A stretch of DNA of 64,000 nucleotides. It comes from Desulfobaccales bacterium. Its GTDB lineage: Bacteria > Desulfobacterota > Desulfobaccia > Desulfobaccales > 0-14-0-80-60-11. Positions 11,268-20,163 of this stretch are shown here, one piece after another. The position numbers and the translations under genes are program-made. The stretch is from NCBI GenBank assembly GCA_037481655.1, contig JBBFLF010000003.1, positions 1 to 64,000 of the forward strand, given 5' to 3'. The notes beneath the pieces are model-generated. The model made no database searches. It saw only the letters and a program-made list of their open reading frames with translations, and was not told the origin of the DNA. Each line of letters starts with the position of its first letter. Within the stretch, counting starts at the first letter, position 1.

Positions 11268-11340
11268 GTTTTTTGAATTCGTGGACATTAAACTTCAGGC
11301 CGAAACGTTCATTTCGCCTTTAAACAATGAATTCAAAAAC
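11268..11340. other. Nested inverted repeat upstream of icd
   Basis: The arms GTTTTTTGAATTC (11268-11280) and GAATTCAAAAAC (11329-11340) are nearly perfect reverse complements, with a second small hairpin CGAAA/TTTCG inside the loop. It sits in the 271-base gap between the HAD gene and icd. It may be a weak terminator of the HAD operon or an operator for icd; the sequence alone cannot decide. Confidence 0.45.
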
Positions 11341-11354
11341 TGGGATTCAGTCCC

Positions 11355-11427
11355 CCAACCCAACCTTGAAACTTGAACCTAAACCCTGACTTTGGGCTTT
11401 GGGCTTTGAACTTTGGACTTTTAGGCA
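11355..11427. repeat. Heptamer array (CTTTGGA type) upstream of icd
   Basis: Degenerate units of the type CTTTGGG/CTTTGAA/CTTTGGA run up to the icd ribosome binding site (CAGGAGAAGAGG). This is the leftmost of the heptamer arrays found only between 11.3 and 18.75 kb, and the only one here with no opposite-orientation partner next to it. Confidence 0.7.
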
Positions 11428-11439
11428 GGAGAAGAGGAC

Positions 11440-12669
11440 ATGCAGGCAGGCAATGCGGGTGAGAAAGTGACGGTGGCCGGCGGCGCTGCGGTGATGGTGC
11501 CGGAGCGGCCCGTTATTCTGTTCATCGAAGGGGACGGCACCGGCCCGGACATCTGGCGGGCGGCCCAGCCGGTCCTGGACGCCGCGGTGGCCAAGGCCTA
11601 CGGCGGCAGGCGGGCCATCCGCTGGCAGGAGGTGCTGGCCGGGGAGAAGGCCTTCCAGGCCACGGGGAGCTATCTCCCGGAAGAGAGCCTCCGCGCCCTA
11701 AGGGAATACCGGGTGGCCATCAAGGGCCCCCTCACCACCCCGGTGGGGGGCGGCTTCCGCTCCCTCAACGTCACCTTGCGCCAGGTGCTGGATCTTTACG
11801 CCTGCATCCGGCCGGTGCGCTATTACGAAGGGGTGCCCAGCCCCTTGAAGGAGCCCTGGAAGATCGACATGGTGGTCTTCCGGGAGAACACCGAAGACGT
11901 TTACGCGGGCCTGGAGTGGCCGGCCCAGTCGCCGGAGGCCCAGCGCCTCATCCGCTTCCTCAACGAGGAGCTGGGCTGCCGGCTGGACCCTGGCGCCGCC
12001 ATCGGCATCAAGCCCATGACCGAGCGCTGCTCCAAGCGCCTGGTGCGCATGGCCCTGCGCTACGCCCTGGAGCGGGGCCGCGCCAGCGTCACCCTGATGC
12101 ACAAGGGCAACATCATGAAATACACCGAGGGCGCCTTCCAGAACTGGGGCTATGAGGTGGCCCTGGAGGAGTTTGAGGACCGGGTCATCTCCGAGGCCGA
12201 GGTGGCCAGCCGCTACCACTGGCAGGTGCCTGAGGGCAAGGTGGTCATTAAGGATAGGCTGGCGGACAATCTCTTCCAGCAGGTGCTGCTCCGGCCCGAG
12301 GAATACGATATCCTCGCCACCCCCAACCTCAACGGCGACTACATCTCCGATGCCCTGGCGGCCCAGGTGGGGGGGCTGGGGATGGCCCCCGGCGCCAACA
12401 TCGGCGATGATTGCGCCATCTTCGAGGCCACCCACGGCAGCGCCCCCAAGTATGCCGGTCAGGACAAGGTGAACCCCAGCTCCGTCATCCTCTCCGGGGC
12501 CATGCTTCTGGAGTTTTTAGGCTGGCACGAGGCCGCCCGCCTCATCCACGCCGCCATCCCCAAGGCGCTGAAGGACGGCGTCGCCACTTATGATTTGGCC
12601 CGCCAGCTCCCCGGCGCAAAGGAAGTCTCCTGCTCCGCCTTCGGCCAGGCGCTCATTGACCGGATGTGA
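11440..12669 (+). CDS. icd: Isocitrate dehydrogenase (NADP-type)
   Basis: Oxidative decarboxylation of isocitrate to 2-oxoglutarate, the carbon skeleton for the glutamate synthase and glutamine synthetase encoded next door. The 409 residues include the substrate-binding segment [27 protein letters not shown], the catalytic region [14 protein letters not shown] and [18 protein letters not shown], where Lys-Tyr matches the NADP-specific enzymes rather than the NAD type. AGGAGAAGAGG precedes the ATG. Family length about 415. The gene is bracketed on both sides by heptamer arrays. Confidence 0.95.
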
Positions 12670-12673
12670 GGGG

Positions 12674-12863
12674 AGTCCAAAGTCCAAGGTCCAAAGTCGG
12701 GGGTCAAGGTTCAGGGTTCCGGGTACAAAGTTCAAGGTTCAAGGTTGAGTCCAAAGTCCAAAGCCCAAGGTCCAAAGTCGGGGCTTTGGGAATTTAAAGT
12801 TCAAGGTTCAAAGTTCCGGGTTTTGGGGCGAAGGTTTCAGGTTCCAAGTTCAAAGTCAAGTCC
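12674..12863. repeat. Heptamer array, TCCAAAG orientation (left arm, copy 1)
   Basis: Starts five bases after the icd stop codon. Units such as TCCAAAG, TCCAAGG, GTTCAAG and TTCAAAG repeat with mostly transition changes. It is the left arm of an inverted pair with 13051-13243. The intervening 12864-13050 is AT-rich and contains no gene that I can support. Confidence 0.85.
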
Positions 12864-13050
12864 AGAACCTGAGGCCCAAATTCTGAAAGAAAGTGGGAGG
12901 TTGAAAATCTGTAGTTAAGGATAAAAGCGGTAAAACCGAATTATTCCCTGCGGGGAGGATTAATAGTTTGAAGTTTAAGCTTTATAAAGGTCTATTGCTA
13001 AAAGTTTTAGGCAAAGGGACCAAACCGATTATTCAACCCCCCGCCTAATA

Positions 13051-13243
13051 ACTTTGAACCTTGAACCTGGAACTTTGAACTATCAAGTATGGACTTTGGA
13101 CTCAACCCCCGACTTTGGTCTTGGGACTCTTAACTTTGAACCTTGAACCTGGAACTTTGAACCCCTGGCCTGGAACTTTGAACTTTGAACCTTGAACCTG
13201 GAACTTTGAACTTTGGACCTTGGGCTTTGGACTTTGGACTCTT
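13051..13243. repeat. Heptamer array, CTTTGGA orientation (right arm, copy 1)
   Basis: Units CTTTGAA, CCTTGAA, CTTTGGA repeat up to the stop codon of the minus-strand amidotransferase gene. Reverse-complementary in type to 12674-12863, so the 570-base intergenic region is one long imperfect inverted repeat. Confidence 0.85.
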
Positions 13244-15895
13244 TCAGTGTCTCAGCGGCTTTCCCCACCCCACCTCCTCCAGGCCGGATTCCTCCACCAC
13301 CTGGGCCAGGACGGCCAGCTTCACCGCCTGCACCTTGCGATAGACTTCGTGGAAGGGCCTGAGCTCCCCGTCCACGGTGAGCAGATGCCGCTCCACCTCA
13401 ATGCCGAAGAGGCGCTCGTTTTCCTGTAAGTATGGCCGGATGAGGTCCCAGTCGGCCTGGCTGAGCTCCACCAGCTCGCCGCCGTTAAGCTGGTCCTCCC
13501 CCACCAGACGGTAAGGGTCCCGGATGTAGATGGCGCCGCCGGAGGCCAAAGAAAAGAGGTTGGCGCCCGGGTAAGGGGTGGCCTGTTCCTGGATCCGGCC
13601 CCGGTGGTCGAAGGTGAGGCCGTTGACGATGACAAAACCGCCGCCGTTGAGGGGATCGCCGGCCATGAAGGACTCCGCCAGGAAGTCCAGGGCGGTGCCG
13701 TTGATCACCACCCGCGGGCGGCCCACGGCGTTGATGAGCGGCCGGCCGGCGGCGTTCCCCAGCACGTAAACCTCGCCCCCTTTGGCGCCGTACATGAAGG
13801 TCTGCCCCACGTCGCCAAAGACCACGAGCTTGCCCCGCTTCATGATCTGGCCCAACTGATCCTGGCCGTTGCCGTGCACGTAAATCTCCATGCCGTCAAT
13901 GCCGCTGGCCAGGTAGTCCCCGGAGCTGCCGTAGACGTCGATGCGCACGTCGTCGGTCCCGAGCCCGAAGCCGCAACCGGTGAAGCGCTGACCCCGGTAG
14001 CCGTGGCAGATAAAGCGCCGCCAGCCCAGGGCATGGGCCTGGCAGAGCAGCCGGGCGTCGCAGTCCTCGCCCTCGGGCGGAAACTTGGCGGCGTGGAGCA
14101 CCAGGACTGCGTCCGGCCGGTGTGGCGGTACGAGCCTATCCCGGGTGTCCCAGTCAATGGCCCGATAGCGGCTGGAATGCTCCGTCCCCATGGGCGGCAC
14201 CGCCAGAAGGATCTCCGTCAAGGTGTCCATGAGCAGGCGCACCAAGTGGCTGCGCTTCTTGTCGCCGGGGTCGTAGCGCCGGTCCAGAAGCAGGGTGAGG
14301 CCGTTAATCAGGGCGGCCTTGAGCTCATCATCCTCCCGGGCCAGCCGGGCCCCCATCTGGATGAACTCGAGAAAGCGGGAGTAGGGCCAGTTGGGCACCC
14401 GCAGCCGCACATGCTCGTAGAAGTCCCGGCCGCTTTTGTCGGCCAAAAGCTCGGTGAGGAGCGGGGTCGTCTCCGCCAGGCGCTCCTCGTCCAGGGGCAG
14501 GACCGTTCCCTCCCAGGGCTTCTGGAACCAGGGCACGGTGGTGGGCTTGCCGAACTTGTCGTGGCAGCTTAGGAGCATTTTGCCGTTCTGCTTCTCCAGG
14601 GAGAAGATGAAGGCGCCGCCGTCGGTGTGGCTGCCGCCCCGGGCGTTCCAGTAAAGATCGGCCACCGGACAGAAGCGGGGGTCCTCCGCCGCCAGCGAGG
14701 CCAGGGTGGCGTCGATGGCCTGCTTTTCCGAGCACACCAGGCCGATCTGCACCTGGCCTTCGGAGAGCGCAAAGACCTGGGGCCGGAGCATGGAGGTGTC
14801 GGTGATGCCGATGAGCTCCAGGCGCTGCTTCGCCGTGTCGTTTCTGGCGATGATGAAAAACCAGGGCCCGTCCGGGGAGCCGTGGATGTGGGCCGCCTGC
14901 AGGTGCCGGTAGACCTTCTGCTTCTCCGGCGGCAGGAGGTCAAAATCCCGCTCGGTGGTGGGGGCCAGCGCCTCAATGACATACTCCAGAGGATAGCCGT
15001 AGAGCCGATGCCACAGGTCAAAGAGCAGCACCGCCACCTCGGTGTCGGTAAGGAACTGGGGGTAGAAATGGCGTTGGCTTAAATATTCGCTCACCGAGTG
15101 GTAGTTGGCGAAATCGCCGTTGTGCACCAAGGCCACGTTCAAGGCCGCGAAGGGATGGGCGCCCCCCGGGTGCCAGACCCGCCCCCGGGTGGGATAGCGC
15201 TGGTGAGCGATCCAGATGTGGGCCTTGAAATCCAGGAGGTTGTAGTATAGAGCCGCTTCCTCGGCGTAACCCACAATCTTCAGGATCATGAGATTGCGGC
15301 CCTGGGAGAGCACAAAGGCCTTCTTCTCCCCCAAAGACGCATAAAAAGCCTGGTTGAGCCGGTAGCAGTTCTGGGAGACGAACTCGTCCTCCACCATGCG
15401 CCAGGGGAGCTCATAGAGGCGGTGCCGGTGGATGAAATACTGCAGCACCTCGGGCTTGACCCGGACAAAATAGCGCCAGACGTCCGGCGGCCGCACCTCC
15501 AGGCCGGGCAGGTCCCGCCAGTCGGCCATGGCCGGCACCGGCGCCTGGTGGTCCACCCGAAAGACGTTGGTGATGAAGCGAGCCTCCACCTGGGGGCGCA
15601 CCTCGGGGTCGAGATAAGCCACCTGGATGAGGTAGCTCTCCTCCAGGATCTCCTGGCTCACCCCCAAAGAGGCCGCGTCCAACCCCACCGCGGCGATGCC
15701 GCCGCCCTTGCCGTTGCCCCGGTTGTGCATCTGCACCGAGGGCAGGAAGATGTGCTTCCCGGAGACCGGGACCGAGGCGGCAAAGCCCGTGACCCCACAG
15801 CCGCCTTCGTCCTCGCCTTTGATCACCCGGTCGGCGGGATAAGGACGGGGGAGATGGCGACGAGTTTCCCAAAGCTTTAAGCCATATTGCGACAT
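13244..15895 (-). CDS. Glutamate synthase-like protein: class II glutamine amidotransferase fused to GXGXG domain
   Basis: An 883-residue protein. The N-terminal half is an Ntn-type glutaminase: Cys33 in EGGCGVTGF is the likely nucleophile exposed after removal of a 32-residue propeptide, followed by the characteristic IAHQRYPTRG, VHNGDFAN and TDTEVA segments. The C-terminal 270 residues form the GXGXG beta-helix of glutamate synthase (GYRGQRFTGCGFG...GDYLASGIDG...GNGQDQLGQ...GDVGQTFMYGA). The FMN barrel that normally lies between these domains is absent and is encoded by separate genes upstream. The ATG at 15895 is chosen because the 12-residue upward extension is translated heptamer repeat. 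Probable role: ammonia release from glutamine for glutamate formation. Confidence 0.88.
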   Translation of the reverse strand: MSQYGLKLWETRRHLPRPYPADRVIKGEDEGGCGVTGFAASVPVSGKHIFLPSVQMHNRGNGKGGGIAAVGLDAASLGVSQEILEESYLIQVAYLDPEVRPQVEARFITNVFRVDHQAPVPAMADWRDLPGLEVRPPDVWRYFVRVKPEVLQYFIHRHRLYELPWRMVEDEFVSQNCYRLNQAFYASLGEKKAFVLSQGRNLMILKIVGYAEEAALYYNLLDFKAHIWIAHQRYPTRGRVWHPGGAHPFAALNVALVHNGDFANYHSVSEYLSQRHFYPQFLTDTEVAVLLFDLWHRLYGYPLEYVIEALAPTTERDFDLLPPEKQKVYRHLQAAHIHGSPDGPWFFIIARNDTAKQRLELIGITDTSMLRPQVFALSEGQVQIGLVCSEKQAIDATLASLAAEDPRFCPVADLYWNARGGSHTDGGAFIFSLEKQNGKMLLSCHDKFGKPTTVPWFQKPWEGTVLPLDEERLAETTPLLTELLADKSGRDFYEHVRLRVPNWPYSRFLEFIQMGARLAREDDELKAALINGLTLLLDRRYDPGDKKRSHLVRLLMDTLTEILLAVPPMGTEHSSRYRAIDWDTRDRLVPPHRPDAVLVLHAAKFPPEGEDCDARLLCQAHALGWRRFICHGYRGQRFTGCGFGLGTDDVRIDVYGSSGDYLASGIDGMEIYVHGNGQDQLGQIMKRGKLVVFGDVGQTFMYGAKGGEVYVLGNAAGRPLINAVGRPRVVINGTALDFLAESFMAGDPLNGGGFVIVNGLTFDHRGRIQEQATPYPGANLFSLASGGAIYIRDPYRLVGEDQLNGGELVELSQADWDLIRPYLQENERLFGIEVERHLLTVDGELRPFHEVYRKVQAVKLAVLAQVVEESGLEEVGWGKPLRH

Positions 15896-15910
15896 GTTAT
15901 TCACCGATGG

Positions 15911-16095
15911 AGTCCAAAGTCCAAGGCCCAAAGTCCAAAGTCAGAAAGAATTAGTCCAAAGTCCAAAGTCAAAAAGATTAGTCCAAAGTCAAAAGTCCAA
16001 AGCCCAAGGTCCAAGGTCAAATGAATTAGTCCAAGGTCCAAGGTCCAAAGTCCAAGGTCAAATGAATTAGTCCAAAGTCCAAAGGCAAAAGTCAG
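15911..16095. repeat. Heptamer array, TCCAAAG orientation (left arm, copy 2, flanking the four-helix-bundle gene)
   Basis: Blocks of three to five TCCAAAG/TCCAAGG/CCCAAAG heptamers are separated by AT-rich spacers such as TCAAATGAATTAG and TCAAAAAGATTAG, giving a higher-order period of roughly 40-55 bases. Begins about 15 bases upstream of the amidotransferase start codon. Confidence 0.88.
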
Positions 16096-16154
16096 ATAGA
16101 TTCGTCTAAAAGTGCAGGGGTTGTTAAAAAATTTAAGATATAGAAAAAATTAAT

Positions 16155-16544
16155 CTATTTGTATTTGCTGCCTTTGTGCGTTGACTCTTTGATATATCTC
16201 ATGAAACCGGCTATCAGGCGCGACGTTTCATCCGCCAAATCCAGAAGATGATGAAACTGATTCTGGTCAATCAGACCTGCATCCACAGCCGCATAAATCT
16301 GGGCTTTCAGTTCTCCCACCGAGCCTTTGGCGATGGAGAGGAATTGCCGGAATTCCTTGTCACCCTCCCGTTCAAAGCCCTCAGCAATATTGGCCATGAT
16401 GGAAATGGCCGAGCGCCTCAGTTGGTCTCTCAACACAAAATCCATCGCCAGAGTGCCCTGACTTGTTATTTGATAAATATTTTTGGTCAACTCCCGGGCC
16501 TTTCTCCAGGCCTCAATCTCCTCAAATCTTTCAATTTTCCCCAT
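16155..16544 (-). CDS. Four-helix-bundle protein (23S rRNA intervening-sequence / S23 family, Avd-like fold)
   Basis: 129 residues with the hallmarks of the bacterial IVP/S23 family: FEEIEAWRKARELTKNIYQ (helix 1), FVLRDQLRRSAISIMANIAEGFER (helix 2), FRQFLSIAKGSVGELKAQIYAAVDAGLI (helix 3) and the final helix LADETSRLIAGFMRYIK. Family members occur inside 23S rRNA intervening sequences, as free-standing genes, and as Avd, the accessory protein of diversity-generating retroelements; biochemical role unclear, with a basic surface suited to nucleic acid binding. No reverse transcriptase or rRNA is near. It is the only gene found between a pair of inverted heptamer arrays, and base composition is lower in GC than its neighbours, both suggesting transfer. 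AAGGAC precedes the ATG. Confidence 0.88.
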   Translation of the reverse strand: MGKIERFEEIEAWRKARELTKNIYQITSQGTLAMDFVLRDQLRRSAISIMANIAEGFEREGDKEFRQFLSIAKGSVGELKAQIYAAVDAGLIDQNQFHHLLDLADETSRLIAGFMRYIKESTHKGSKYK

Positions 16545-16585
16545 TGTCCTTCGCCTAAAACTATTCCAACTTCGGTCTTAAAAAA

Positions 16586-16696
16586 CTTTGGACTTTGGAC
16601 TTTGGACTTTGGACTCGAAAAACGACTTTGGACTTTGGGCCTTGGACTTTGGACTCGAAAAATGACTTTGGACCTTGGACTTTGGACTTTGGACTC
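16586..16696. repeat. Heptamer array, CTTTGGA orientation (right arm, copy 2)
   Basis: Three blocks of GGACTTT heptamers (variants GGGCTTT, GGGCCTT, GGACCTT) separated by CGAAAAACGA and CGAAAAATGA. It ends at the stop codon of the minus-strand FMN-barrel gene. Opposite in orientation to 15911-16095. Confidence 0.88.
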
Positions 16697-18247
16697 TCAC
16701 ACCCCCCGCCGGATATCATCCTCCACCGGCAGGTTGTAGTAGTCCAGGTGGACCAGGGTGTCGGTGCGGCCCACCAGCTCCCGGATACTGCGCATGCCGA
16801 AGCGGCGCAGGATCTCTTTCAGCTGCCAGGTCCAGGCATGGTAGAGGTTGCACACCCGGCGGGTGCCCCACTCCACCGTCATCATGGCCACCAGCTCCGG
16901 GTCGGTGGTGGCAATGCCCCGGACACAGCCCCGCCCGGACTCGCATTGATAGCAGCGGATGCACTCCAGGGCCACCATCTCGGCGGTGCCCACCTGGCAG
17001 CCGTCGGCCCCCAGGGCGATGGCCTTGGCCACATCAAAGGCGGTGCGGATGCCCCCCGAGGCGATGAGGGTCACCTGGTCCCGGATGCCCTCCTGCACCA
17101 GGAACTGGTGCACCTTGGGGATGGCCAGCTCGATGGGCATGGCGATGTTCTTCTTGGCGATGTCCGGCGCCGCGCCGGTGCCGCCGTAGCTGCCGTCCAG
17201 CTGCACCACGTGGGCCCCGGCGTAGTAGCTCCCCACCGCCACCATGTCCACGTCCGTGGGGGTGGAGACCTTCACCGACACCAGGGCCCGGGGGTTGACC
17301 TCCTTGATCCAGTCGATGTGTTTTTTGTGGTCCTCCACGGAGTAGACGCTGTGGAAGGGGAAAGGGCTGAAAAGGGCGCTTCCGGGCACGCTCTCCCGCA
17401 TGCGGGCCACCGCCGGGGTGACCTTGTCGCCCAAGAGGTGCCCGCCCAGCCCCGGTTTGGCGCCCTGGGCATACTTGAACTCCACCATGCGCACCCGCTG
17501 GATGGTGTCCTCCCGGACGCCGAAAAGCCCGGTGGCCACCTGGGTGACCACGTGATCGTCATACGGGTAGAGCTCCTCCGGGTAGCCCCCTTCGCCGGTG
17601 GAGAGGAGGGTGTTGAAGCGGGTGGCGGCCCGCACCCGGGAGAGGATGGTGTTGATGCTCACCGAGCCGAAGGACATGCCGGCGGAATACCAGGGCACCG
17701 ATAGTACCACCTGGGGCCGGCCGTCATGGCGCCGGTTCAGGGGGAGCTCCAGAGAGATATCTTCATGCCGGAGTTTGAGGTCCTTGGGCTGGGGCGGGAA
17801 GAAGAAGCGCAGCTTGTCAAAGCCGCCCCCCGAGTTGCCGGTGCGGTATTCCAGATCGGCATAGGGGAGGGTGCCGAATTCCGCCATCCACCAGGTGCTA
17901 AGGAGCAGGTCCGCGGTCCAGCGGTAGTCCCCCAAGGTGTTATAGACCGGGTGCAGCCGGATGCTTAAGGCCTGGGTGGGGCAGCGCCTAACGCAGTAGA
18001 AGTCGTTTTTCTCGCAGGCCGGCCCCAGACACAGGTAACTTAAGGGCTTGCGGATGAACTTGTTCGCCTTGGTGTGCACCCCATAGGGGCAGACCTCCAC
18101 GCAGGTGCCGCATTGGATGCACTTGGCCTCGTTGCGCCACACCCGCCATTTGGACAGGGGGTTCTTGAACCGGCAGGGGGTGCGCACCGGCGTCCAGGGC
18201 CCGGGGCCCCAGGCTTCGTTGTCAATTTTCAAAGCAGTTTCCATCAT
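16697..18247 (-). CDS. Glutamate synthase-like FMN-barrel protein with N-terminal ferredoxin domain
   Basis: 516 residues. An N-terminal bacterial-ferredoxin domain has Cys43-x2-Cys46-x2-Cys49-x3-Cys53 and a second group Cys73, Cys78, Cys85, Cys89, for two Fe-S clusters. The rest is the FMN-binding (beta/alpha)8 barrel of glutamate synthase: SVSINTILSRVRAA, GAKPGLGGHLLGDKV, LVSVKVSTPTDVD, QLDGSYGGTGAAP, LIASGGIRTAFDVAKAIALGAD, and the 3Fe-4S type loop CIRCYQCESGRGC. This layout is typical of archaeal and anaerobic bacterial GltB-like proteins that take electrons from ferredoxin. Together with the amidotransferase/GXGXG protein it could make a complete split glutamate synthase. Confidence 0.88.
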   Translation of the reverse strand: MMETALKIDNEAWGPGPWTPVRTPCRFKNPLSKWRVWRNEAKCIQCGTCVEVCPYGVHTKANKFIRKPLSYLCLGPACEKNDFYCVRRCPTQALSIRLHPVYNTLGDYRWTADLLLSTWWMAEFGTLPYADLEYRTGNSGGGFDKLRFFFPPQPKDLKLRHEDISLELPLNRRHDGRPQVVLSVPWYSAGMSFGSVSINTILSRVRAATRFNTLLSTGEGGYPEELYPYDDHVVTQVATGLFGVREDTIQRVRMVEFKYAQGAKPGLGGHLLGDKVTPAVARMRESVPGSALFSPFPFHSVYSVEDHKKHIDWIKEVNPRALVSVKVSTPTDVDMVAVGSYYAGAHVVQLDGSYGGTGAAPDIAKKNIAMPIELAIPKVHQFLVQEGIRDQVTLIASGGIRTAFDVAKAIALGADGCQVGTAEMVALECIRCYQCESGRGCVRGIATTDPELVAMMTVEWGTRRVCNLYHAWTWQLKEILRRFGMRSIRELVGRTDTLVHLDYYNLPVEDDIRRGV

Positions 18248-18253
18248 GTTTTA

Positions 18254-18508
18254 ATCCAAAGCAAAAAATTAGTCCAAAGTCCAAAGCCCAAAGTCCAAGG
18301 TCCAAAGTCAAAAATTAGTCCAAGGTCCAAGGCCCAAAGTCCAAAGTCGGAAAAGAGTCCAAAGCCCAAAGTCCAAGGTCCAAAGTCAAAAATTAGTCCA
18401 AGGTCCAGAGTCCAAAGTCAGAAAAGAGTCCTAATTTTATGGTCCAAGGTCCAAAGTTGGAAATGAGTCCAAAGTCCAAAATCGAAAGTCCAAGGTCAAA
18501 TCAAGTTT
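18254..18508. repeat. Heptamer array, TCCAAAG orientation (left arm, copy 3)
   Basis: Starts a few bases upstream of the FMN-barrel gene start codon. Blocks of TCCAAAG/CCCAAAG/TCCAAGG are separated by TCAAAAATTAG and TCGGAAAAGAG spacers, the same architecture as 15911-16095. The following 18509-18646 is AT-rich, with a TTCAAAAG-like degenerate tail and no supportable gene. Confidence 0.87.
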
Positions 18509-18646
18509 TAGTGTCTAAATAAAAATTCAAAAGTTAAAGATTCAAAGATTTAAAGTTCAAAAGTCAAAAATTCAAGTCGAAAATACTTTTTTAATACAAT
18601 CCATTGAAGTCAAAGCCATAGAAATATGGTTTATTTTTGCCACAAG

Positions 18647-18743
18647 CCTTGGACTTTGGACTTTGGGCCTTGGACTTTTGACTTTTGTATTGACTTTGGG
18701 CCTTGGACTTTGGACTTTTTTATTGGACTTTGGACTTTGGACT
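18647..18743. repeat. Heptamer array, CTTTGGA orientation (right arm, copy 3)
   Basis: Units GGACTTT, GGGCCTT, GGACTTTTG repeat until five bases before the stop codon of the minus-strand Fe-S protein gene. Opposite in orientation to 18254-18508. Confidence 0.87.
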
Positions 18744-18747
18744 ATCT

Positions 18748-20163
18748 TCATTCCCCTTCCCGCCTGAGGCCCTCCGGGGTGGGGCGGGAGAACAGGGGCG
18801 CAAAGATCTCCCGCTCCAGCTCCTCCACAAACATGGCCCGGCCCACCTCGCCCCGCAGGCGGCGCACCTCCCTAAGCCCCATGGCGCCCAAGACCTCCAG
18901 GAGCTGATTGTTCCAGGCCCCCAGGAGGTTCACCTGGCGCTGGGCCCCGCGGTTCGGGTCCAGGTTGTCGATGGCCACCGGACACTCACCGCCCCGTTGA
19001 CAGGCCCGGCACAACCGGCACTCCAGGGCCAGAAGCAGCGGCAGGTCCACGACCACCCCGTCAGCGCCGCAGATGATGGCCTTGGCCACATGCTCCGCCA
19101 AGGCGATGCCCCCGGAGGCCAGAAGCGTCACGGTGTCCCGGAGGTTGTCCTCCACCAGTTGCAGGTGCGCCGCCCGGATGAGGTCTTTGAGGTGCTGCTC
19201 CTGAGCCCCCAAAAAGCCCCGGGCATGGTGGTCACAGAAGAGGTGGACGACCTCGGCCCCGGCCTGGGCCAGCTCCGACACCCGCGAGGCAGCCCGATCG
19301 TCCGCCGGCACCTTGATCATGATGACCAGACCTGGATGACGGCGTTTCAGGGCCTCCATCTGGGTCAGCACGCCCTCATGGTCGGTGAGCTCCACCAGCC
19401 GGACTTGGGCAAGGAGCGGGTCTTCGGGATCAGCGAGGCCGGTGGGGAAGCTGAGGCACAGGTGCTCCGCCTCCGTGGCCAGGTCCGGGGTGACGTTTTC
19501 CCGGGCGAAGACCGCCAGGGTCTTGAGGCTCTTGGCCGCGCCTGCCAAGGCCCGGCGCACCAGCTCCGGCCCGGCGCTGAAGGGCGGCTCGGCCAAGAGC
19601 ACCGGCAGGGGAATCTCCACCTGGGGCGGCGGCTCGAAGGTGAGCCGGCCCTCGGCGTCAAAGACCAGAAAGAGCGGCTTGCGGCCCAGATCGATGGCGG
19701 TGCTGATGTACTCCCGGCCGTGGATGCCGTCCCGGGTGGGCCGAACGATCTCGCTCATGTCGGTCCAGATGCTGTCAAAGCCGGGGCCGGCAAAGGGCCC
19801 GCCGTAGCCCGCGCCGGAGACCGGAATCTTGCCGGTCTCCGCCTGAAACCAGGTGGACTGGATGACCGCCGGGGTCCAGTAATCATCCCCCAGGCGGCGG
19901 TATTGGGGGTTGGCGGCCTTCACCACCAGCTCCCGGGGGCAGCCCTGGACGCAGCGCAGGCAGTTCTTGCAGTAGGTGTCGATGGTGTCGGAGAGGCTGC
20001 GATCATCGAAGTCCCGCTGCCGGAAGGCATTATACGGGCAGGTCTCCTTGACGCAGCGGGTGCATCTCAAACACCCCTCCCCCCAATCCAGGACGGTGGT
20101 CTTGCCCACCGACGGAAAGCGGGAAGGCGTAGGCCTGACATGAATGTGATACTTTTCCGGCAT
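18748..20163 (-). CDS. Fe-S protein with degenerate glutamate synthase-like barrel
   Basis: 471 residues. Two N-terminal 4Fe-4S motifs (Cys31, 34, 37, 42 and Cys65, 68, 71, 75; context CLRCTRCVKETCPYNAF) are followed by a barrel related to the glutamate synthase FMN domain but more divergent: LLASGGIALAEHVAKAIICGADGVVVD and the Cys loop CRLCRACQRGGECP are kept, while the middle region (LLAEPPFSAGPELVRRALAGA) has drifted. It is best read as a paralogue or partner subunit of the 516-residue FMN-barrel protein, possibly an electron-transfer or scaffold subunit. Lies between metV upstream and the FMN-barrel gene downstream on the same strand. Confidence 0.75.
   Translation of the reverse strand: MPEKYHIHVRPTPSRFPSVGKTTVLDWGEGCLRCTRCVKETCPYNAFRQRDFDDRSLSDTIDTYCKNCLRCVQGCPRELVVKAANPQYRRLGDDYWTPAVIQSTWFQAETGKIPVSGAGYGGPFAGPGFDSIWTDMSEIVRPTRDGIHGREYISTAIDLGRKPLFLVFDAEGRLTFEPPPQVEIPLPVLLAEPPFSAGPELVRRALAGAAKSLKTLAVFARENVTPDLATEAEHLCLSFPTGLADPEDPLLAQVRLVELTDHEGVLTQMEALKRRHPGLVIMIKVPADDRAASRVSELAQAGAEVVHLFCDHHARGFLGAQEQHLKDLIRAAHLQLVEDNLRDTVTLLASGGIALAEHVAKAIICGADGVVVDLPLLLALECRLCRACQRGGECPVAIDNLDPNRGAQRQVNLLGAWNNQLLEVLGAMGLREVRRLRGEVGRAMFVEELEREIFAPLFSRPTPEGLRREGE

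Follow-up and report, generated by a model that had tools for sequence, protein, structure and literature searches.

Inverted heptamer arrays around S23 genes: a candidate family of bacterial elements

We analysed 64,000 nucleotides of a Desulfobaccales bacterium genome (assembly GCA_037481655.1, contig JBBFLF010000003.1, positions 1 to 64,000; hereafter the window), which contain three successive regions of inverted heptamer arrays, the middle one enclosing a gene of the S23 family (PF05635). The comparison with other S23 loci shows that the gene and its arms form one unit, the arms being inverted copies of each other, that the repeat co-varies with the S23 subfamily, and that many of these genomes also have scattered gene-less arrays of the matching repeat. 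We propose, with a probability of roughly 60%, that these loci belong to a widespread and apparently undescribed family of bacterial elements, made of an S23 gene and subfamily-specific inverted arms, in which a ring of S23 acts on the arrays and array blocks are copied via foldback. The "four helix bundle" genes of PF05635 occur commonly in bacteria (in about half of 198 genomes sampled from the phylum) and have no assigned function; a repeat proper to each subfamily gives S23 a concrete, testable candidate ligand.

The S23 loci were drawn from relatives of the window's genome, from its phylum, from 80 GTDB species across bacteria (selected via a conserved peptide pattern) and from viral contigs. 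Most of these genomes are draft assemblies, which break at repeats, so that some S23 genes beside arrays may be missed. Arrays of period 7 occur at 1.40 per kb within 250 bp of an S23 gene, compared to 0.10 per kb beyond 600 bp (a 14-fold difference), while periods 3–6 and 10–12 are almost absent near these genes and periods 8 and 9 are few. At loci with arrays on both sides, 41 of 44 arm pairs are reverse complements (shuffled pairs give a mean of 4.1 and a maximum of 11 in 2000 shuffles). A looser test, which ignores periodicity and asks for an inverted match between the two flanks, is positive for 142 of 163 S23 genes (87%), for 10 of 326 mismatched flank pairs (3%) and for 6 of 101 control open reading frames (ORFs) of similar size (6%). 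The first-pass annotation of the window had suggested testing whether S23 genes are enriched between inverted arrays in this and related genomes, and these counts show that they are. Many of the remaining arms are made of the same kind of repeat with a period of 8 or 9, such as GAGTGTTC in L164 and GTTCAANNN in L161. None of 60 scanned S23 loci lies inside an rRNA gene.

The sequence of the repeat depends on the protein: CGGTTTT, GAGTTTC, GTYCAAR (that of the window), CAGTRGT, AATCGTG and others each go with an S23 subfamily, and several subfamilies can share one genome. In pairwise comparisons of 83 S23 proteins, repeats agree for 4% of the pairs at 30–50% amino-acid identity, 12% at 50–60%, 61% at 60–70% and 94% at 70–90%. 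The global Spearman correlation between heptamer and protein distance is weak (-0.08), distant pairs carrying no signal and the relation holding only above about 60% identity. These results also bear on the idea that heptamer microsatellites merely expand by slippage, and that S23 genes happen to lie in array-prone spacers. Tandem arrays can slip, and array length does vary among Coxiella strains (PMC4990558), but the subfamily-specific heptamers conserved at 60–90% protein identity, the reverse-complement arms, the virtual lack of arrays of periods 3–6 and the control genes without such flanks speak against slippage. Neutral growth is already disfavoured, and we consider it very improbable.

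In the window, a period-7 detector finds arrays only at 11388–11421, 12674–13242, 15911–16697 and 18271–18743, and none in shuffled windows. The three inverted regions and the S23 gene reported by the first-pass annotation are present, the protein matching PF05635 with E 3e-35 (121 bits, for a curated cut-off of 33.8). The left arms consist of GTCCAAR and the right arms of YTTGGAC, with GTTCAAR/YTTGAAC units interspersed (Table 1). The arrays fill each spacer among a dehydrogenase gene, which bounds the set on the side of the lower coordinates, and three glutamate synthase-like genes; only the middle pair has a gene inside. The two arms of the S23 copy share one identical block of several units, and copies 2 and 3 have left-arm spacers in common, for example TCAAAAATTAG, as had been noticed at first reading. 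The variants in the arms are mainly transitions, as also noticed (55 of 77, compared to 1 in 3 at random); the accompanying argument that this preserves G-U pairing is weak, since both arms vary and A-C mismatches arise too. The proposed check on RNA folding gave a clear answer: the minus-strand RNAs of the S23 copy and of gene-less copy 3 fold arm against arm, with z-scores of -10.9 and -10.7 relative to dinucleotide shuffles.

Table 1. Coordinates of the arrays and of the genes around them in the window
Feature	Position	Strand	Remarks
139-bp stretch with short one-orientation array (11388–11421)	11285..11423	.	absent in congener G001
isocitrate/isopropylmalate dehydrogenase gene	11440..12669		
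left arm, gene-less copy 1	12674..12850	+	GTCCAAR and GTTCAAR units
right arm, gene-less copy 1	13050..13243	-	
glutamate synthase-like gene	13244..15931	-	
left arm, S23 copy, downstream of gene	15911..16110	+	GTCCAAR/GCCCAAR blocks, GTCAAAnnATTA-type spacers
S23 / 23S_rRNA_IVP gene (PF05635), 129 aa	16155..16544	-	Pfam; conserved motif SIMANIAEGFER
right arm, S23 copy, upstream of gene	16585..16697	-	three ~31-nt blocks GAC(TTTGGAC)4, TCGAAAAAY spacers
glutamate synthase-like gene	16697..18247	-	
left arm, gene-less copy 3	18254..18520	+	corresponding spacers in congeners G001 and G002 are array-free
right arm, gene-less copy 3	18647..18743	-	
glutamate synthase-like gene	18748..20163	-	

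Elsewhere, some S23 loci have peculiar contexts. S23 genes flanked by paired arrays (AACGTTG, GAGTGGA, GTTGGCT) are found on IMG/VR contigs labelled viral (L219, L220, L233, L234 and L243). In genome G024, S23 copies that are nearly identical and have short GAGGACT/AGTCCTC arms (L117:5760-7540, L115:2600-5050 and L116:7060-9800) lie within regularly spaced repeats that resemble an array of clustered regularly interspaced short palindromic repeats (repeat ...TTGACCTGATTAGAAGGGATTGCGAC), in a tandem amplification with partial 215-bp units. In the same genome, the S23 element at L117:3230-4000 has, upstream, about 16 units of GAGCCGN and, downstream, arrays of CGGCTCA, and the 3' end of its gene is duplicated in tandem together with the right array.

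The confinement of the arrays to 11.3–18.75 kb, noted at first reading, holds within the window and not beyond it: the heptamer recurs in about ten intergenic islands elsewhere in the 2.87-Mb genome (G000). Several of these are inverted, so that the search for inverted pairs at other loci, suggested at that stage, was productive. The islands are nevertheless sparse, the heptamer being absent from 400 kb of arbitrarily chosen stretches of G000, and no array was found in 326 kb sampled from G001, a member of the same genus that has no S23 gene. Based on pattern searches and 20-kb samples, the array density is 145 per Mb in G003, which has 8 S23 matches, and 22 per Mb in G024, a value that includes ACGGCTC arrays of a separate repeat family (see below). 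The gene-less arrays of G024 and G003 consist mostly of heptamers that also flank resident S23 genes. Among members of the family, the median number of GTYCAAR arrays is 74 in genomes with the matching S23 clade and 20 in the others (P 0.016), from which these arrays are not absent. Most gene-less pairs, although not all, have the same polarity as the S23 copies.

Other repeats occur in these genomes. Repeats of 100–300 bp that resemble composite repetitive extragenic palindromes (REPs) are dispersed in G024 (L314, L316, L317, L318, L320, L321, L324, L326), and some of them carry ACGGCTC heptamers resembling the arms of a resident S23 element. We considered that these might be gene-less S23 elements, and set them aside as a separate REP-like family. 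In G000, about five tandem units of about 200 bp, each with GTTCAAAG and CTTTGAAC ends, lie beside a GTCCAAR array (C37, L039:8731-9796). A 60-bp sequence at C11 (L036:5000-5061) has dozens of matches in G001, G002 and G003 and is a separate dispersed repeat.

The gltB-type locus is conserved among relatives, and what lies in its spacers differs. G001 has neither S23 gene nor arrays there; the other congener, G002, has S23 and arrays in the same spacer as G000, and no array in the third spacer. In G006 and G008, which belong to other genera, the S23 genes are of the same clade, and GTTCAAR arrays lie on the same side of them. Glutamate synthase spacers with S23 or heptamer arrays are found across genera (L107 and L108 in G006 and G008, L101 in G003), which suggests either long retention or a preferred site. 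With respect to G001, the array at 11.3 kb amounts to a nearly clean difference of 139 bp: the window sequences up to 11284 and from 11424 align to directly adjoining bases in L099. At C3:108.6k, the spacers of both congeners are unrelated and contain no array, and G003, which is more distant, has arrays of its own there.

It may be that nothing in this system is mobile, and that S23 acts as a resident regulator by binding RNA or DNA, the dispersed arrays being operators or mRNA sites and its own pair being autoregulatory. Such a regulator would explain why repeat and protein are cognate, why the arrays lie between genes and beside start codons, and why S23 is under purifying selection; a translational role has also been proposed for TAACTGA repeats, which are abundant orphan intergenic heptamers of Beggiatoaceae, cyanobacteria and a few Bacteroidetes (MacGregor 2015, PMC4679880). 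It is less easily reconciled with array sites that differ between congeners, with several S23 subfamilies in one genome, with the patchy occurrence of PF05635 (present in 45 of the 59 relatives and in 104 of the 198 genomes that were sampled in the phylum), and with the strict inversion of the arms about the gene, a feature not required of an operator. We regard this explanation as improbable, although it is the strongest of the alternatives to an S23 element family.

The gene at 16155–16544 is the sole PF05635 match in G000. The ratio of nonsynonymous to synonymous substitutions (dN/dS) is near 0.24 in comparison with the G002 copy, which shows that the protein is maintained by purifying selection. 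Its AlphaFold2 model is a four-helix bundle (predicted local distance difference test score of 96.6) whose closest structural matches are 2gsc (Z 20.9) and 2rld (Z 18.0), then Avd in the ribonucleoprotein of a diversity-generating retroelement (DGR; Z 15.0). Both 2gsc and 2rld contain five chains, and the S23 protein of X. campestris is a toroidal homopentamer (PMC4990558); judging from these, the window S23 is probably homopentameric. Structure comparison reveals no nuclease fold in this helical bundle. The enclosed gene matches PF05635 only and is not a Y1 (HUH) tyrosine transposase, so that there is no transposase inside the pair, and there is no recombinase in the window element.

In the mechanism that we favour, the homopentameric ring would bind its cognate array, most likely on the transcribed hairpin, the loop of which would contain the S23 gene, usually co-directional with its neighbours. 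Successive repeat cores would contact successive subunits. S23 would also act in trans on arrays elsewhere in the genome and promote their persistence and copying, blocks being copied between arms and into new spacers by host enzymes, through a foldback (hairpin) intermediate. When transitions are allowed, the lengths of array blocks peak at 24–27 and 31–35 nt, which corresponds to four or five cores of 3 nt at 4-nt spacing, and the distance between adjacent direct blocks is often 8–9 nt; this suggests that one array block may wrap one S23 ring. The 23S rRNA intervening sequences (IVSs) that bear S23 would be a special case, in which the unit lies inside an rRNA helix and RNase III cuts it out.

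Several observations weigh against this proposal. Some genomes have arrays without a cognate S23 gene (G003 for GTTCAAR, G009, G010, G016 and G019); overall, the refuting condition given at first reading, relatives with arrays and no S23 association, is not borne out. A TAACTGA-rich genome, G463, has no S23 match. The five-core block length is a tendency, exact GTYCAAR blocks giving no clean five-core peak, and we keep the idea of pentamer counting as a hypothesis because this peak appears only in the transition-tolerant histogram. S23 genes are co-directional with both neighbours in a ratio of 42:4 (based on heuristic gene calls), which excludes orientation-blind insertion, but ordinary G024 genes are equally co-directional, and we have dropped this argument as a proof of an RNA intermediate. 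The C11 site in G002 looks like a decayed array, and some presence/absence differences between congeners may reflect decay rather than insertion. The comparison of gltB-type loci, which was expected to reveal insertion boundaries and target duplications, established that the presence of arrays differs, but congener spacers are too divergent to map either feature. Array sites do turn over; insertion, decay and site preference are indistinguishable here. Last, the non-array centres of gene-less islands are unrelated to one another, heptamers being all that they have in common.

The arms tell a different story from the centres. Within a G000 island, opposite arms share identical multi-unit blocks that bear variants (6, compared to 0.9 in shuffles), and different islands share 72 such identical blocks, compared to 26 in shuffles, a test that is somewhat generous since shuffling also erases the local clumping of unit types. 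Taken with the unrelated centres, this block sharing indicates that blocks appear to be copied between arms and islands, and whole islands do not. The gene-less copies are thus not simple deleted copies. The first-pass view that the arrays are the ends of a mobile element, gene-less copies being remnants moved in trans, is at present a conjecture; no target duplication was found. A conventional transposable element, with the arms as terminal inverted repeats, a recombinase supplied in trans and gene-less islands akin to miniature inverted-repeat transposable elements, would fit the polarity of most gene-less pairs, the many dispersed copies and the nearly clean empty site of the 11.3-kb array in G001. 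However, the islands have no internal sequence in common, the arms are tandem arrays of varying length instead of fixed ends, no target duplication was seen, and S23 lacks a nuclease fold. We find this explanation unlikely, a little more so than a host regulator.

The S23 element family that we propose would link free-standing S23 genes with rRNA intervening sequences, and offer a source for orphan heptamers such as TAACTGA. If arrays spread under the control of S23, this would be a type of element that does without a transposase fold. A bolder version, to which we give slightly less than even odds, is that S23 pentamers and cognate arrays constitute a new class of selfish elements in many phyla, in which the ring counts cores on the hairpin and promotes the copying of blocks to new spacers, many bacterial orphan heptamers and the S23-bearing intervening sequences being its traces. 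A general link between S23 genes and inverted heptamer arrays was found in no paper; this search covered the open-licence literature and is not a proof of novelty.

TAACTGA repeats, whose possible translational role was mentioned above, were described without any S23 gene (PMC4679880). In four TAACTGA-rich cyanobacterial genomes, S23 genes have CAGTAAT/TCAGTTA-type arrays upstream and TAACTGA downstream (L370, L371, L372, L380, L384); in TAACTGA-poor genomes, the S23 arms are built of other repeats. Judging from these sequences, the orphan TAACTGA repeats of cyanobacteria are arms of S23 elements; they belong to the same repeat class.

Other systems have part of this organisation. A REP-associated tyrosine transposase (RAYT) gene lies beside cognate inverted repeats (REPs and REPINs), and many gene-less matching repeats occur in the genome. 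RAYT belongs to the Y1 transposases, and its REPs are short palindromes, whereas the S23 element combines a helical-bundle protein with tandem heptamer arrays. The foldback (FB) transposons of Drosophila have long inverted arms of short tandem repeats, and variable or unrelated centres; they resemble S23 elements in their inverted short-repeat arms, but they are eukaryotic and have no S23-like protein. Avd of DGRs has the same fold as the window S23 (Z 14–15), with about 10% identity. There is no reverse transcriptase among the neighbouring genes that were checked, which are metabolic; the whole genome was not scanned for DGR parts.

The closest relatives are the IVSs of 23S rRNA, whose function and origin are stated as unclear (PMC4990558). 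In Coxiella, RNase III removes the IVS, whose S23 ORF has complementary ends on either side and is preceded by GACAGAT heptamers, two or three of them depending on the strain (PMC4990558). The window element and the IVSs of Coxiella and Leptospira have in common an S23 ORF between complementary ends that form a long stem. Unlike these, the window element lies between glutamate synthase-like genes, outside any 23S rRNA helix, and the arms of S23 genes here are long, subfamily-specific arrays, which also occur without the gene at many intergenic sites.

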